This document shows positions 6,517 to 12,092 of a stretch of 64,000 bases of DNA, in pieces (positions within the stretch are counted from its first letter, which is position 1; the number at the start of each line of letters is the position of its first letter). The position numbers and the translations under genes were made by a program. The notes under the pieces are model-generated. The model saw only the letters and a program-made list of their open reading frames with translations, was not told the origin of the DNA and made no database searches. The stretch lies in contig NZ_JACHXD010000001.1 in NCBI RefSeq assembly GCF_014191875.1, forward strand, positions 372,001 through 436,000, given 5' to 3'. Origin of the DNA: Pseudoduganella violacea. GTDB lineage: Bacteria; Pseudomonadota; Gammaproteobacteria; Burkholderiales; Burkholderiaceae_D.

Positions 6517-7404
6517 ATGACCTTCACCCAGCTGGAGATTTTCGCCCTGGTGGCCGAGCTGCAAGGCTTCACCGCCGCCGCCATGCGCCTGGGCATCAGC
6601 CAATCCGCCGTCTCGCATGCGATCAAGTCGCTGGAGCAGGAACTGGGCGCGCCGCTGATCCTGCGCCAGCAAGCGACGGCCGAGGTGACGGAAGTGGGCC
6701 AGCGCCTGCTGACGCGGGCGCGCGAAATCCTCGGCCTGGCCGAAGCCATGCGCCAGGAAGTGGCCGCCGCGCGCGGCTTGAACCAAGGCTTGCTGCGCAT
6801 CGGCTCCTTCGGCCCCACCGCCTCGCTCAAGCTGATGCCGGCGATCCTGGCGGTCTTCCACAAGCGCTATCCCGGCATCGAGGTGCAGATCGACGAAGGC
6901 GGCGACCATGATGTGCTGCAATGGCTGCTGGACCGCCGCGTCGACGTCGGCTTCGTCGTGCTGCCCGACGAACGCTTCGACACCGTGCCGCTGGTGGAGG
7001 ACCAATTGGTGGCCCTGCTGCCCGCCGAGCACGCGCTGGCCGAGCGGCGCGCCATCTCGGTCAACGATCTGGCCGACGTGCCCTACATCCTGGGCGAAGC
7101 CGGATGCGCATCCCTGATGCAGCCGGTCTTCGCCGCCCATGGCATCAGTCCCAAGGTGCGCTATCGCATCTCGCAGATCATGACCATCCTCGGCATGGTC
7201 GGCAGCGGCGACGGCGTCACCGTGATGCCGGAACTGGCCCTGCCCAAGGACATGGAGCGCGCCTATCCGCAAGTGGCGCTGCGCCCTTTCCGGCCCGCCG
7301 TGCGGCGCCGCGTCGGCCTGGCCCTGCGCGACCTGCGCCAGGCTTCGCCGGCCGCCAAAGCCTTCATCGATACCGCCCGCGAAGTGGTCAAAACCCTGGC
7401 CTGA
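6517..7404 (+). CDS. LysR-family transcriptional regulator
   Basis: A 295-residue regulator with the N-terminal winged helix-turn-helix (MTFTQLEIFALVAELQGF, then the recognition helix SQSAVSHAIKSLE) and a periplasmic-binding-protein-like effector domain from about residue 90. The start at 6517 aligns with the usual LysR N-terminus. The frame is open upstream, but those residues lie in the control region. It is divergent from the DMT exporter and probably controls it in response to the exported compound. A hairpin with a T6 tract about 100 bp downstream may end its transcript. Confidence 0.85.
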   Translation: MTFTQLEIFALVAELQGFTAAAMRLGISQSAVSHAIKSLEQELGAPLILRQQATAEVTEVGQRLLTRAREILGLAEAMRQEVAAARGLNQGLLRIGSFGPTASLKLMPAILAVFHKRYPGIEVQIDEGGDHDVLQWLLDRRVDVGFVVLPDERFDTVPLVEDQLVALLPAEHALAERRAISVNDLADVPYILGEAGCASLMQPVFAAHGISPKVRYRISQIMTILGMVGSGDGVTVMPELALPKDMERAYPQVALRPFRPAVRRRVGLALRDLRQASPAAKAFIDTAREVVKTLA

Positions 7405-7471: not shown

Positions 7472-7495
7472 CGCTATATAGTCATGTATATTGCG
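7472..7495. promoter_or_regulatory. ModE-like molybdate operator, upstream copy
   Basis: CGCTATAT-N8-ATATTGCG, with 7 of 8 arm positions symmetric. It contains TATAT-N7-TATAT, matching the published ModE core TATAT-N7-TAYAT, and has the same 8-8-8 layout as the E. coli modA operator. It is 75 bp upstream of the TonB receptor's GTG start. ModE bound to molybdate is generally a repressor at such sites. Confidence 0.75.
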
Positions 7496-7500
7496 CTGTC

Positions 7501-7524
7501 GGCCGCATTGGGCGGCCATTTTTT
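7501..7524 (+). terminator. Intrinsic terminator or attenuator between the two ModE boxes
   Basis: GGCCGC (7501-7506) pairs with GCGGCC (7512-7517) around a 5-nt loop, followed by A and six T. It could end the LysR transcript coming from upstream. If the receptor promoter lies at the upstream ModE box, it would instead sit in the receptor's leader as an attenuator. Confidence 0.65.
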
Positions 7525-7531
7525 CGGCAGG

Positions 7532-7555
7532 CGTTATATACGTCTGGATATAGCG
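7532..7555. promoter_or_regulatory. ModE-like molybdate operator, proximal copy
   Basis: CGTTATAT-N8-ATATAGCG, again 7 of 8 arm positions symmetric, exactly 60 bp from the first copy. It ends two bases before the Shine-Dalgarno AAGGAG (7558-7563) of the TonB receptor gene. The outer CGTTATAT arm is identical to that of the E. coli modA operator. Confidence 0.75.
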
Positions 7556-7569
7556 ATAAGGAGCAGCAA

Positions 7570-9585
7570 GTGAATCAGCGTGGCAAGCAGCCGCAACTGC
7601 GCAAAGCAGGACAAGGCATCCTGGCCGCCGCCATCCTGGCGGCATTCGGTTCCAGCCCGGCGTGGGCGCATGGCGAGGACGATGGCTCCGCCTTCGAACT
7701 GGGCACCATCACCATCATGGGCAAGCGCCCGCAGGCCGGCGAAGTGGGCGAAGACCAGGTGGCATCCGTGGTCAGCCGCCAGGAAATGCAGCGCTTTAAC
7801 CGCGACAATGTGGGCGACGCATTGAACCTGCTGTCCGGCGTCACGCTCTCCAACAACTCGCGCAACGAGAAGACCATCTCCGTGCGCGGCTTCGACGCGC
7901 GCCAGGTGCCGCTCTTCATCGACGGTATTCCCGTGTATGTGCCGTATGACGGCTATGTGGACTTCAACCGCTTCAGCACCGCCGACCTGGCCGCGATCCA
8001 GGTGGCGAAAGGCTTCAGCTCCGTCGCCTACGGCGCCAACACCATGGGCGGCGCCATCAACCTGATCTCGCGCAAGCCGACCAAGGCGCTCGAAGGCGAT
8101 GCCAGCATCGGCTTCGCCGAAGGCAGCGAGCGCCAGGCTTCGGCCAACGTCGGCACGCGCCAGGGCCGCTGGTATCTGCAGGCCGGCGTGTCCTGGCTGC
8201 GCAGCGACAGCTTCCCGCTGTCCTCCGACTTCCGCCCCACCGCCAGCGAGGATGGCGGCGAGCGCAATAACGCCTACCGCAAGGACAGCAAGGTTTCGCT
8301 CAAAGTCGGCTTCATACCCAACGCCAGCGACGAATACGCCGTCAGCTACTACAAGCAGGACGGCAAGAAAGGCCAGCCGCCATCGACCGATCCAACGGCG
8401 GCGCGCTACTGGAAATGGCCGTACTGGGACAAGGAAAGCCTGTACTTTATCTCCAACACGGCGCTGGGCCGCAGCGAGCTGCTGCAAGTGCGCCTCTACC
8501 ACGACCGCTACGGCAATGAGGTGGACAGCTACACCAACGGCAGCTACGCCACGCTCAAGCCCTCCGGTTCGGGCAGCGTCGGCACCGGCCGCAGCATCTA
8601 CAAGGACAAGACCAACGGCGGCTCCATCACCCTGGAATCCTCGCGCTGGGACGCGCACAGCCTGCGCCTGGTGGCCCACTTCAAATCCGACGACCACCGC
8701 GAGACGGATGCCAACGCCACCCTGAACTCCAACTTCAAGGACGAATTCCTGTCCTACGCGGTGGAAGACAATATCCAGCTCTCGCCGTCCTTCATGCTGG
8801 CGCTGGGCGCCGGCCGCCACGAGCAGCGCGCCAAGACCGTCTACAGCCTGGGCAACCCCTACTCCGTCCCAGGCCGCAAGAGCGCCAACAATCTGCAGGC
8901 GGGCCTCTACTACGACTGGAGCGGCATCGGCCGCCTGTACGCCACCGCCGCCAAGAAAACCCGCCTGCCGAAGCTGAAGGACCGCTATTCCCAGCGCCTG
9001 GGCAGCTTCATCGAAAATCCGAACCTGCAGGCGGAAGAAGCGCTCAACTACGAGATCGGCTACCAGGGCCGCGCATGGAGCGGCGCCAAGGCCGAAGCCG
9101 CGCTGTTCTACAGCGATGTGAGCGACAAGATCCAGAGCCAGCCCAATGTGGTGGGCAACAAGTCGCAGATGCGCAATATCGGCAAGGTGCACCTGTCCGG
9201 ACTGGAGCTGGGCGTCAGCGGCCAATACGCGTCGTGGCTGGAATACGGCGCCAACTTCACCTACACGGAGCTGAAAAACGTCAGCAATCCGGCCGTGAAG
9301 CTGACCGATATCCCGCGCCGCAAACTCACCGCCCACGCCCTGCTGCGTCCCATGGACCGGCTGGAGCTGATCGCCTTCATCGAGAACAATAGCGGACGCT
9401 GGGCCAACAACGCGCTGGAGCTGTCCGGTTTCACTACCGCCAACCTGAAAGCGAACTACCACTTCACGCGCCAGCTGGCGCTGGAAGCGGGCGTCAACAA
9501 CGTGGCCGACCGCAATTACGCCCTGGCTGACGGCTTCCCCAGCGCGGGCCGCAACTGGTTCGCCAATATCCGCTACCAATACTAA
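7570..9585 (+). CDS. TonB-dependent outer-membrane receptor, probably for molybdate or a Mo chelate
   Basis: A 671-residue outer-membrane receptor that would import a substrate using TonB energy. It has a signal peptide (to about residue 33), a plug domain (about 50-165, with ISVRGFDARQVPLFIDGIPV and VAYGANTMGGAINLIS) and a 22-strand-type barrel ending in an aromatic residue (NIRYQY). The GTG start at 7570 has AAGGAG six bases upstream. The substrate is inferred, not seen. Two ModE-like operators precede the gene. A molybdopterin-domain protein follows 11 bp later and then a NifQ-like gene, so molybdate, tungstate or a Mo-binding metallophore is the best guess. The usual alternatives are iron siderophores or vitamins. 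Confidence 0.8.
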   Translation: MNQRGKQPQLRKAGQGILAAAILAAFGSSPAWAHGEDDGSAFELGTITIMGKRPQAGEVGEDQVASVVSRQEMQRFNRDNVGDALNLLSGVTLSNNSRNEKTISVRGFDARQVPLFIDGIPVYVPYDGYVDFNRFSTADLAAIQVAKGFSSVAYGANTMGGAINLISRKPTKALEGDASIGFAEGSERQASANVGTRQGRWYLQAGVSWLRSDSFPLSSDFRPTASEDGGERNNAYRKDSKVSLKVGFIPNASDEYAVSYYKQDGKKGQPPSTDPTAARYWKWPYWDKESLYFISNTALGRSELLQVRLYHDRYGNEVDSYTNGSYATLKPSGSGSVGTGRSIYKDKTNGGSITLESSRWDAHSLRLVAHFKSDDHRETDANATLNSNFKDEFLSYAVEDNIQLSPSFMLALGAGRHEQRAKTVYSLGNPYSVPGRKSANNLQAGLYYDWSGIGRLYATAAKKTRLPKLKDRYSQRLGSFIENPNLQAEEALNYEIGYQGRAWSGAKAEAALFYSDVSDKIQSQPNVVGNKSQMRNIGKVHLSGLELGVSGQYASWLEYGANFTYTELKNVSNPAVKLTDIPRRKLTAHALLRPMDRLELIAFIENNSGRWANNALELSGFTTANLKANYHFTRQLALEAGVNNVADRNYALADGFPSAGRNWFANIRYQY

Positions 9586-9596
9586 GGAGAGAAAAC

Positions 9597-10163
9597 ATGA
9601 TCCAGATCCTGCGCCGCCGCGCCCTCGTCTTCGCCTTCGCCTTTGCCGCCACGGGCGCCCTGCTGCTGCCCGCCGCCGCGCTGGCCGAACACAAACCGGC
9701 CGATCCATCCAAGTACGTGACGGAGCGCGTCAGCGTCAGCGGCGCCGTGCAGCATGCGCTCACGCTGAAAGTGGACGACCTGCGCAAATTCCCGCCGCAG
9801 CAGGTCGGCGAAATGCCGCTGATCTGCCAGTCCGGCGCGAATATGGGCAAGCTGGAAAACTTCAAGGGCGTGCTGCTGCGCGATATTCTCAACAAGGCCG
9901 AACTGGTGTCGCGCGAGCATAACGACTTCAAGAAGCTGGTCATCATCGCCACCGCCAGCGATGGCTACAAAGCCGTCTTCTCCTGGAATGAGCTGTTCAA
10001 TTCCAAGCTGGGCGACGGCGTGCTAGTCTTCTTCGAGAAGGACGGCAAGCTGCTGGGCGATGACGAAGGCCGCATCGCCATGGTTTCCAGCCAGGACACG
10101 CGCAGCGGCCCGCGCCACGTGAAATGGCTGCAATCGATCGAAGTGCGCCGCATCACGGAATGA
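9597..10163 (+). CDS. Exported single-domain molybdopterin-binding (sulfite-oxidase-fold) protein
   Basis: A 188-residue protein with a basic, hydrophobic signal peptide (cleavage likely after AALA, about residue 30). The single domain resembles the Oxidored_molyb fold of sulfite oxidase and YedY. The segment PLICQSG carries a Cys at the place where that fold ligates molybdenum, and GVLLRDIL and SSQDTRSGPRHVKW are family-typical. No heme, dimerisation or second catalytic domain is present, so it is much smaller than sulfite oxidase. It could be a reduced periplasmic oxidoreductase or a Mo/cofactor-binding protein. It sits 11 bp after the receptor gene with its own AAGGAG, and its stop overlaps the next start (ATGA), indicating one operon. 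Confidence 0.75.
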   Translation: MIQILRRRALVFAFAFAATGALLLPAAALAEHKPADPSKYVTERVSVSGAVQHALTLKVDDLRKFPPQQVGEMPLICQSGANMGKLENFKGVLLRDILNKAELVSREHNDFKKLVIIATASDGYKAVFSWNELFNSKLGDGVLVFFEKDGKLLGDDEGRIAMVSSQDTRSGPRHVKWLQSIEVRRITE

Positions 10164-10774
10164 GCGCCTCCACCGGCCATGGCGCTGGCCTGCCCGTCGG
10201 CGCGGGTGGATCGTCTGCCGCGCCAGCGCCGCGCGATCCCGCCGCCTTGATGGCGGCGGCCGTCGCGGGCGTGCTGCGCCACGCCGCCCAGGGCGAACTG
10301 CCGCCGTTCGCCCGCACCCTGGGGCTGCCGCAGGCGGAGCTGGCGGCCATGGTAGCCAGCTGCCTGCCGCCGCCGGCCAAGGAGGAAGCCCATCCATGGC
10401 CCGGCGCCGTGTCATCCGCCAAATACCGGGCCATCGCCGACAGCACGCCGGCCGTGTTCCGGGATCTCAGCGCCCTGCTGCTGGCAAACCGCAGTGCCGC
10501 AGTGAATGAGCGCCACACCGCCTGGGCCGCGCGCGCCATCGCCGCCGCCAGTCTTGGCGGCCGCCACCTATGGCAGGATCTGGGACTGAATGGACGACAG
10601 GAAGTCTCCGCCCTGCTGCGCCACTACTTCGATCCCCTCTTCCAGCGCAATACGCGCGACCTCAAATGGAAGCGCTTCCTCTACCTGGAGCTGGGCGCGG
10701 CGCAAGGCATTCCCGAACTGCGTCCGCCCAAATGCCTGAACTGCGACCAGTACCGCGCCTGCTTCCCGCTCTAG
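10160..10774 (+). CDS. NifQ-like protein (molybdenum-handling)
   Basis: A 204-residue protein. Its C-terminal half follows the NifQ pattern: HLWQDLGL, a conserved acidic/aromatic helix, N-x3-(L)KWKRFLY, then C-x2-C-x5-C-F at the end (PPKCLNCDQYRACF). NifQ donates molybdenum to nitrogenase cofactor assembly through a Mo-Fe-S cluster held by C-x4-C-x2-C-x5-C. Here the first Cys of that motif is replaced by Leu, leaving three. No nif gene is visible. The N-terminal part is Ala/Pro-rich. The ATG at 10160 overlaps the previous stop, which gives translational coupling. I infer a role in intracellular Mo delivery or storage unrelated to nitrogenase. Confidence 0.75.
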   Translation: MSASTGHGAGLPVGAGGSSAAPAPRDPAALMAAAVAGVLRHAAQGELPPFARTLGLPQAELAAMVASCLPPPAKEEAHPWPGAVSSAKYRAIADSTPAVFRDLSALLLANRSAAVNERHTAWAARAIAAASLGGRHLWQDLGLNGRQEVSALLRHYFDPLFQRNTRDLKWKRFLYLELGAAQGIPELRPPKCLNCDQYRACFPL

Positions 10775-10896
10775 CACAGCGTTAACAGACTAGCGATGGA
10801 CAGCACATTCTCCGGCCGCAGCATGGTCAGCACCGCCCAGCCGCATAAGGCGCACAGCAGACCGATAAAACACAGCAGGGCAGCGCGCGCCTTCAT
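10771..10896 (-). CDS. 41-residue single-TM protein coupled to an MFS gene
   Basis: ATG at 10896-10894 overlaps the TGA of the upstream MFS gene (ATGA). The frame runs 41 codons to TAG at 10773-10771. It encodes a short basic N-terminus (MKARAALLCF), one hydrophobic segment (about residues 6-26) containing several Cys, and a short tail. The stop lies in the palindrome CTAG, which also supplies the stop of the convergent nifQ-like gene. Translational coupling and membrane character suggest an accessory subunit of the transporter, but I know of no family for it. Confidence 0.5.
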   Translation of the reverse strand: MKARAALLCFIGLLCALCGWAVLTMLRPENVLSIASLLTLC

Positions 10897-12092
10897 GCCG
10901 GCTGCACGCGCGCCACGGCGCGGTCATCGATAGGCCAATGCAGCGCCGCCGCCACGAGGCCTAGCACGATGGCGCCGATCCACACCGCGTCATAGGAACG
11001 CGTCGCCTCGAACACCACGCCACCCAGCCACACCCCGAGGAAGCTGCCGATCTGGTGGCCCACAAAGACCAGGCCAAACAGCGTCGAAATATACTGCACG
11101 CCGAATACCTGTGACACCAGCCCGTTCGTCAGCGGCACGGTCCCCAGCCACAGCGCGCCCATGATGAAGGCAAACAGATAGATGCTGGCGTGGCTGACCG
11201 GCAGCACGAAGAACAGCAACATGGCCGCGGAGCGCAGCAGATACAGATACGCCAGAAGATGCTTGCGCCGGTAGCTATTCCCCAGCAAGCCGCACAGATA
11301 GGTGCCGCCCACATTCGCCAGCGCCACGATGGCCAGCGCCGCCACGCCGGTGTGCGCGTTGAAACCCTTATCCAGCAAATACGCCGGAAAATGGCTGGCG
11401 ATAAAAGCCAGCTGGAAGCCGCAGGCCAGGAAGCCCAGATTCAGCAGCCAGAAACCGCGATGCGACAGCGCCTCGCGTATCGCCTGCCCCATGCGCTGCC
11501 CCTTCTGCTGCACTGCCGCCAGCGCGCCGCCATCGTTCAAGCCCGCCGCCAGCGGCGCAGCCATCGCCAGCAGCACGGCAATGGCCAGCAAGGCGCCCAT
11601 CCAGCCCAGCGTATCGATCAGGCCCTGCGCCCCCGGCACCATCAAGAACTGCCCTACCCCGCCCGCCGCGCCGGCCAGTCCCAGCGCCCAACCGCGTTTT
11701 TGCGGCGCCACGATGCGGCTCAAGGCGCCATACACCGTGCCGAAGGTCGTCCCCGACAGCGCCAGCCCGATCAGCAAGCCGCCGCTCAGCGCCAATTCCG
11801 TGCTGCTGCGCGCATACGCCATCAAACACAGTCCCAAGGCATACAGCAGACAGCCCGCCAGCAGCACGCGCAGCGAGCCGAAACGGTCGGCCAATATGCC
11901 CGTCAAAGGCTGGGCCAGTCCCCAGACCAGGTTTTGCAGAGCCAGGGCGAGCGCGAACTGCTCCCGGCTCCAACCTCGCGCACCGGTCATCGGCAGCATG
12001 AACAGGCCCTGGACATGGCGCATCCCCAGCGCCAGGCCGATGATGACCCCACCGCAGATCACGGCGGCCAAAGGCGATTTCAATATCTTCAC
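10893..12092 (-). CDS. MFS transporter, monocarboxylate/OFA-like
   Basis: A 399-residue inner-membrane carrier with twelve predicted helices. MRHVQGLFMLPMTGARGWSREQFALALALQNLVWG at the N-terminus and the motif A loop GILADRFGSLRV are typical of the monocarboxylate-porter-like branch. The start is GTG at 12092, with GGGAG seven bases upstream. The divergent region toward the DUF2917 gene holds a perfect 15-bp inverted repeat lying roughly midway between the two starts, so a common regulator is plausible. The substrate is unknown; organic acids are a family-level guess. Confidence 0.8.
   Translation of the reverse strand: MKILKSPLAAVICGGVIIGLALGMRHVQGLFMLPMTGARGWSREQFALALALQNLVWGLAQPLTGILADRFGSLRVLLAGCLLYALGLCLMAYARSSTELALSGGLLIGLALSGTTFGTVYGALSRIVAPQKRGWALGLAGAAGGVGQFLMVPGAQGLIDTLGWMGALLAIAVLLAMAAPLAAGLNDGGALAAVQQKGQRMGQAIREALSHRGFWLLNLGFLACGFQLAFIASHFPAYLLDKGFNAHTGVAALAIVALANVGGTYLCGLLGNSYRRKHLLAYLYLLRSAAMLLFFVLPVSHASIYLFAFIMGALWLGTVPLTNGLVSQVFGVQYISTLFGLVFVGHQIGSFLGVWLGGVVFEATRSYDAVWIGAIVLGLVAAALHWPIDDRAVARVQPA

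Follow-up and report, generated by a model that had tools for sequence, protein, structure and literature searches.

ModE is a molybdate sensor that regulates modABC, and operators of the E. coli type have the consensus ATCGNTATATA-N6-TATATANCGAT (PMC545781, available in part). NifQ gives molybdenum (Mo) to the synthesis of the iron-molybdenum cofactor FeMo-co (Hernandez 2008, cited in PMC6448029, available in part), and a 2012 census of nitrogen-fixation genes counts it as a nif gene (PMC3464626, in part). PruR is a periplasmic pterin binder that lacks the Mo-ligand cysteine of the SUOX fold (PMC13259868, in part). What could a NifQ relative and a SUOX-fold protein be doing side by side behind ModE operators? 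Here we describe such an arrangement at positions 7472–10774 of a 64-kb window (the whole stretch of DNA that was analysed) from Pseudoduganella violacea (NZ_JACHXD010000001.1; whole genome 6.25 Mb), in which two predicted ModE boxes precede genes for a TonB-dependent outer-membrane receptor, an exported SUOX-fold protein and a NifQ-family protein. The favoured explanation, to which we give a probability of about 0.75, is a ModE-repressed operon that scavenges Mo at the outer membrane and includes a repurposed relative of NifQ. Its features are:

7472..7495, no strand: ModE box 1, predicted distal operator; 0 mismatches against the strict pattern, identical box in locus L049
7501..7523 (stem 7501–7517), plus strand: hairpin and T run resembling an intrinsic terminator, between both ModE boxes
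7532..7555, no strand: ModE box 2, predicted proximal operator; matches the strict pattern, and boxes recur upstream of related receptors
7570..9585, plus strand: TonB-dependent outer-membrane receptor, 671 amino acids, GTG start; Pfam plug and barrel above cut-off
9597..10163, plus strand: exported SUOX-fold protein, 188 amino acids; PF00174 at 39.2 bits, AlphaFold model
10160..10774, plus strand: NifQ-family protein of the mod type, 204 amino acids; PF04891 at 123.8 bits, separate clade, last three of five nif-type cysteines

ModE boxes ahead of a TonB receptor

An earlier note on this DNA described two ModE-type palindromes upstream of a TonB receptor, with the next gene within 11 bp. Its coordinates and gene calls for 7472–10774 are correct, and sequence and Pfam confirm both palindromes and the receptor. 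Box 1 reads CGCTATATA-GTCATG-TATATTGCG and box 2 CGTTATATA-CGTCTG-GATATAGCG. Searching with CGNTATAT-N8-ATATNNCG and allowing up to one mismatch finds only these two sites in the window and none in 100 dinucleotide shuffles. With no mismatch (the strict pattern) the whole genome has three places, namely the two boxes and C3:424598 on contig 3, which lies about 25 bp 5' of the likely start of modA in a modA-modB-modC-modE cluster; the modA reading frame as called starts farther upstream and overlaps this box. At two mismatches the genome yields 29 and 39 sites, not far from the 22 and 28 of a reversed-pattern control, so weaker sites were not used. The ModE of this cluster (L034, 6154–6960) carries an HTH_1 domain and two TOBE stretches; it scores 101.9 bits with TIGR00637 (cut-off 98.5) and 139 bits with the Mop model TIGR00638 (cut-off 55), above threshold in both cases. 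Is the promoter instead one of the Fur type? The best Fur match in the window promoter, the only one scanned, is 11/19, and 106 of 300 shuffles equal it; Fur control was rejected there. ModE control, which the earlier note had proposed, is thus borne out as a prediction: modE is encoded beside modABC, the boxes exceed chance and recur before receptor relatives, and the window promoter has no Fur-like site. Two conditions that the earlier note named as refuting its idea, a genome without ModE and homologous operons under Fur, did not come true, the Fur scan covering the window promoter only. We consider it very probable that this is a ModE-regulated molybdenum operon.

The receptor gene is followed after 11 bp by the SUOX-fold gene, whose stop overlaps the start of the NifQ-like gene in an ATGA at 10160–10163. 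No terminator 3' of the NifQ-like gene was found within 9500–10950, and no sigma-70 consensus promoter was seen close to the ModE boxes. Two flanking genes were considered as further members and rejected: of 23 loci, just L049, which is nearly identical, also has the LysR gene (6520–7404 in the window) beside the receptor, and the MFS gene at 10893–12092 lies on the opposite strand. A known riboswitch in the leader was likewise rejected, the sole Rfam match being AgvB at 18.1 bits, below its gathering threshold of 56.

The receptor matches the PF00593 barrel with 110.4 bits and the PF07715 plug with 78.5 bits; among the 25 NCBIfam models listed (of 32 with a match) none reaches its cut-off. 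How conserved is its setting? A search of genome contigs, with the receptor as query, yielded 23 loci, of which 20 were usable; L063 (partial receptor) and L070 and L071 (weak matches) were left out, and the records shared by L188 and L059 and by L050 and genome G076 were each counted once. Relatives with 57–96% identity come from Burkholderiales, Rhodocyclales, Acinetobacter and one gammaproteobacterial record, the closer ones being Massilia, Herminiimonas, Janthinobacterium, Duganella, Rugamonas, a Rhodocyclales and a gammaproteobacterial metagenome-assembled genome and two Acinetobacter. A ModE box with at most two mismatches lies within 300 bp upstream of the receptor in 15/20 loci, which amounts to 3.33 boxes per kb there, while the remaining sequence of these loci has 0.030 per kb. 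Seventeen have a SUOX-fold gene near the receptor, adjoining it in 16 and about 1 kb off, as a weak match, in L067, and five (L049, L050, L051, L052 and L055) have a NifQ-like gene. Gene order repeatedly ties the receptor to molybdate uptake, as in modABC-[box]-receptor-SUOX-NifQ-modE in Herminiimonas (L050), receptor-SUOX-modE-modABC in L060 and receptor-SUOX-modA in Acinetobacter (L061 and L062). The receptor occurs in 12 of 145 genomes belonging to the family. Of these 12, 11 have an upstream box (in G076, G080, G114 and G037 only when two mismatches are allowed); G140 (L189) has none there.

Are the three genes then one unit? In the same 145 genomes mod-type NifQ (the branch without nitrogenase described below) occurs in four, and only two have both it and the receptor (P = 0.034). 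Judged from these distributions, the three genes are separable modules of a ModE regulon and not an obligate set. The association with ModE boxes is conserved, and receptor, box and SUOX-fold gene occur together in Burkholderiales and beyond; the NifQ-like gene is in a quarter of the receptor loci.

Farther from the window receptor the picture changes. Distant receptors adjoin a modE-like gene or a box in Chitinophagaceae L067 and L069 (modE-like gene just upstream) and in L160. Two of six remote receptors found at class level have a box (L160 and L164), and no SUOX-fold match lies near any of the six. In L066 the genes behind the receptor encode proteins of three kinds, Peripla_BP_2, FecCD permease and ABC ATPase, and L164 has one Peripla_BP_2 and one FecCD protein near its receptor. 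By their gene content these remote loci appear to be a different importer class in a setting that is still molybdenum-flavoured. As a separate observation, remote receptor relatives in L065 (8899–16902) and L066 (812–7288) are followed by FmdE with a zinc-finger motif, and L065 also has TonB and a stand-alone ModE-like DNA-binding domain; the two are presumed to be a second kind of Mo/tungsten operon.

A further feature recurs between the boxes. In 9 of 11 two-box loci (the window, L049, L052, L055 and L183–L187) a GC-rich hairpin followed by Ts faces the operon between the paired boxes, where dinucleotide shuffles of the same segments lead to an expectation of about 1.0. L054, which has a weaker hairpin, and L059 fail the criterion. 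No two-box locus has a hairpin facing the opposite way, and none was found in the segment 3' of the box in eight loci treated as one-box, L051 being counted here although a second box lies 267 bp farther upstream; in L057 a hairpin precedes the box. Could it simply be the terminator of the preceding gene? Not in L052 and L183–L187, because the gene upstream of the receptor is divergent there. Since all of L183–L187 belong to a single genus and L049 nearly duplicates the window, the independent cases number about four. The hairpin could be an attenuator for transcripts starting at the distal box. In all five of L183–L187 the divergent gene, encoding 278 amino acids, starts about 150 bp past the distal ModE box and may share it.

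A NifQ branch among molybdate genes

The third gene belongs to the NifQ family, with PF04891 at 123.8 bits (cut-off 27). The earlier note saw NifQ motifs at the C-terminus of this gene; the family assignment holds, and the match extends over residues 35–202 and not the C-terminus alone. No NifH was found in the genome, the best match scoring 32.8 bits against a cut-off of 394.35, which favours the proposed use without nitrogenase.

Is this a local oddity? NifQ occurs in 70 of 399 genomes of the order, 51 of which have NifH. By score these genomes separate into a low group of 16 (up to 128 bits), none with NifH, and a high group of 54 (from 130 bits upwards), 51 of them with it. The 12 family genomes with NifQ divide in the same way, into four low-scoring without NifH and eight high-scoring with it. 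Combined, with G000 and G032 counted once, NifH is present in 0/18 low-scoring and 59/62 high-scoring genomes; the three high-scoring genomes without it (G173, G301 and G459) are drafts of 470, 350 and 410 contigs. Genomic context was seen for 15 of the 16 low-scoring genomes of the order, G224 being left out as a possible nif-type fragment (59 bits, profile positions 117–159). The mod-type set comprises 21 proteins, from 17 of the 18 low-scoring genomes and four further loci of the receptor scan. All 21 adjoin ModE boxes or mod/modE genes, and nine (G032, G296, G390, G500, G419, G331, G282, G152 and G462) have the order modABC-nifQ-modE. All 29 class-level loci, which come from a class search (alignment A4) giving 34 matches in 33 of 369 genomes and 33 non-own matches, carry the full nif-type motif, and no mod-type NifQ was found outside the order among them.

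The two branches also differ in sequence. Nif-type proteins have C-x4-C-x2-C-x5-C in 36/36 sequences recovered of 38 tried (no NifQ reading frame was obtained from L095 and L097), together with a fifth cysteine eight residues N-terminal of the motif, again in 36/36. In the mod type the fifth cysteine and the first of the motif are both missing in 21/21, the window protein included, while C-x2-C-x5-C is kept in 16 of the 21; L050 lacks one of the three, and L111–L113 lack the whole motif and still sit between modC and modE. Both types share a core of H, L, W, D, G, L, R, N, W and K. In the tree 20 mod-type and 36 nif-type rows stand apart with support 99/97 (root not fixed). The remaining mod-type protein, L114 (9422–10849), was left out of the tree and of the core-residue comparison; it is a NifQ-ModD fusion (TIGR01334, 239.7 bits, cut-off 178.85) located downstream of a receptor, a DUF2478 protein and reading frames that by appearance, and not by domain scan, resemble a FecCD-type importer.

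What does this mean for function? With two of the five invariant nif-type cysteines missing, NifQ's known chemistry is not simply transferable. A model of the window protein (predicted local distance difference test, pLDDT, 76.6; from six sequences) has no counterpart in the PDB at an E value of 0.001 or lower. A mod neighbourhood alone is not specific, since some nif-type loci share it (see below); going by sequence and gene order, what is specific to the mod type is the absence of NifH, the placement between modC and modE and the protein sequence itself. The NifQ-like protein probably handles cytoplasmic Mo for something other than nitrogenase. If so, comparing the branches that have five, three or zero cysteines would make it directly testable which part of NifQ binds Mo.

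The exported protein and its candidate ligands

The second gene encodes a small protein with an N-terminal signal-like stretch and a PF00174 match above the cut-off of 24 bits. Its AlphaFold model (pLDDT 83) has the SUOX fold; among the top-ranked Foldseek chains, to which the Z-score comparison was restricted, the highest Z is 16.1 to SoxCD, and PruR follows with 14.2 over 122 residues (7kom) and 14.0 over 124 residues (7kos), the template modelling scores being 0.72 and 0.66 when normalised by target length. Does it hold Mo through a cysteine? The earlier note pointed to a Mo-ligand-like cysteine in a secreted sulfite-oxidase-fold protein; fold, export signal and residue (Cys77 in ‘LICQSG’) are all present in the window, and it is the generality that fails, with an equivalent in 12 of 18 members and in none of five further distinct proteins from one other genus. 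The position is a gap in L053, L056 and L067, Gly in L054 and Thr in two Acinetobacter. A Cys-ligated Mo cofactor as the general function of the protein is therefore ruled out. Invariant in 17/17 are G49, G91, L94, A101, D122, Y124, W130, N135, G139, G158, D167, G171, P172, R173 and V175. Among them Y124 is a candidate PruR-like pterin residue, as is W177, which judged from alignment ranges only is near the matching range. In size and fold the protein resembles PruR; it lacks the Cys-to-Trp change and the dcpA-type operon gene, because the window keeps Cys77 and the next genes are the NifQ-like and MFS genes. In L110 (10150–10983) a cytochrome c is fused to a SUOX-fold domain with the cysteine, within a receptor-NifQ-modE cluster, and the fusion hints at redox work. 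The odds are about even that the SUOX-fold protein is a periplasmic ligand-binding partner of the receptor; a redox partner is the other role considered, and molybdate, a pterin and a chelate are all candidate ligands.

How might the parts work together? When cytoplasmic molybdate is plentiful, molybdate-bound ModE would sit on both boxes and repress the operon; when it is scarce, the boxes would be freed and the operon would come on together with modABC. The receptor would then bring Mo through the outer membrane, a complex with some small ligand being a likelier cargo than free molybdate, and the SUOX-fold protein would take or process the imported species in the periplasm. Together they could raise the supply to ModABC, which would carry molybdate over the inner membrane. 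In the cytoplasm the NifQ-like protein (‘ModQ’, a label coined here) would bind scarce Mo and either store it or supply it to ModE or to the making of cofactor; nitrogenase would play no part. As possible users of Mo the genome has seven PF00384 matches, of which the lowest scores 26.3 bits, and two PF00174 matches, one being the window protein. The PF00384 family also holds a subunit of respiratory complex I, so not all seven need be molybdoenzymes.

On this evidence the receptor probably imports a Mo species. A bolder version, in which Mo enters bound to a pterin or metallophore through a new ModE-controlled class of TonB receptors, a SUOX/PruR-fold protein is the periplasmic carrier, and the NifQ fold is a general module for handling Mo in the cytoplasm, with a nif branch whose five cysteines serve Mo-Fe-S chemistry and a mod branch that serves Mo homeostasis with fewer of them, is tentative and on balance unlikely.

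Is Mo as a metal the cargo at all? The receptor could import molybdopterin, the Mo cofactor (Moco) or another pterin, with the SUOX-fold protein as carrier, so that the operon would salvage a cofactor and not a metal. The PruR structures among the model's matches fit this idea, as does the lack of the Mo-ligand cysteine in PruR (PMC13259868, in part) and, likewise, in part of the SUOX family here. The model matches enzymes of the sulfite oxidase type too, however, and the window protein keeps its cysteine, while a frequent neighbour is modABC, an importer of molybdate. Moco is, moreover, unstable outside proteins. We regard pterin import as quite improbable.

Alternatively, the receptor may import an iron-siderophore, for example a molybdate-binding catecholate, with ModE control reflecting cross-talk between iron and molybdenum and no Mo importer involved. 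The solved receptors closest in sequence are those for siderophores, colicin, heme and B12, and the Peripla_BP_2, FecCD and ABC genes behind the distant L066 receptor are of the siderophore/B12 type. The window promoter, however, carries ModE boxes and not a Fur-like site, the neighbours are mod genes, modE, the ModD fusion and FmdE, and BtuCD-type importers of molybdate exist, MolABC being one. Such a siderophore route is likewise quite improbable. That the NifQ-like gene was merely left behind beside mod genes when a nitrogenase cluster disappeared is highly improbable: nif-type NifQ does lie near mod genes in 7/15 control loci and two to five nif-type cysteines are missing, but the proteins form one clade apart from the nif type across several families, with core residues kept (HLW, D, R, N, WK), and the recurrent place between modC and modE (9/21) and the ModD fusion suggest selection.

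Several findings nevertheless weigh against a Mo-scavenging operon. Five of the 20 receptor loci (L053, L058, L066, L068 and L069) have no box within 300 bp upstream, and the genome's ModE, at 171.5 bits, stays under the cut-off of 369 for NF007957, the NCBIfam equivalog of full length. We know of no molybdenum TonB receptor, and because the nearest solved ones by sequence bind colicin I, vitamin B12, pyoverdine and heme, the ligand may be something other than molybdenum. With only two genomes sharing receptor and mod-type NifQ, the tie between them is weaker than that of each to ModE. The receptor is not confined to nitrogenase-free bacteria, since G019 (L188) and G037 (L192) carry it together with NifH. 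On the NifQ side, modB and modC, mostly with modA, lie near nif-type NifQ in the seven control loci just mentioned (L039, L040, L041, L043, L045, L115 and L118), boxes are also present at nif-type control loci L039, L044 and L118, the NifQ locus L107 has a modE-like gene and no box, and the mod-type protein of L055 has a cysteine one residue off a missing motif position.

Comparison with known systems

If the Mo-scavenging explanation is right, TonB-dependent transport gains molybdenum as a substrate, and the picture in which porins and ModABC suffice for molybdate would need revision. NifQ, too, would be separated from nitrogenase, with one branch sitting in molybdate-uptake operons of bacteria without NifH. 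NifQ matches alone can then mislead surveys of nitrogen fixation: 19 of the 70 genomes of the order with NifQ lack NifH, four of which may be fragmentary assemblies or matches. In the part of the literature covered, neither a TonB receptor for molybdenum nor a NifQ gene within a mod operon was recognisably described, and ModE sites before such receptors may have been predicted already; the available part of PMC8250432 has nothing on mod-type NifQ.

How does each part compare with its nearest described relative? The NifQ of the nif regulon and the mod type fall into one Pfam family along most of the sequence and have in common the core HLW..D.GL..R...N...WK and the last three cysteines. The mod type differs from nif-regulon NifQ in lying by ModE boxes or mod/modE, in the lack of NifH, in the first two cysteines missing in 21/21 and in forming its own clade. 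PruR and YedY/sulfite oxidase share with the second protein the SUOX fold, a size near that of PruR and the N-terminal signal-like stretch, whereas here the cysteine is present in the window and not family-wide, no dcpA-type partner adjoins and the operons are ModE-linked. The receptors for B12, colicin I/siderophore, pyoverdine and heme have the same plug and barrel, with sequence similarity chiefly at the plug, but regulation and neighbours here are molybdenum-related. An outer-membrane step for molybdate is also found in Pseudomonas aeruginosa, with ModA secreted by the H2 type VI secretion system and the outer-membrane protein IcmP; that system, in the available part of its description, works through a binding protein that leaves the cell by type VI secretion and not through a ModE-linked TonB receptor operon (PMC11734730). 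Finally, the operator type and the ModE-family regulator are those of the E. coli-type ModE-modABC system, and modABC here has the third box; to that scheme the P. violacea operon adds a TonB-dependent step at the outer membrane, together with a SUOX-fold protein in the periplasm and a relative of NifQ. All components thus come from known families, and there is a real chance that the class of transport substrate is new.

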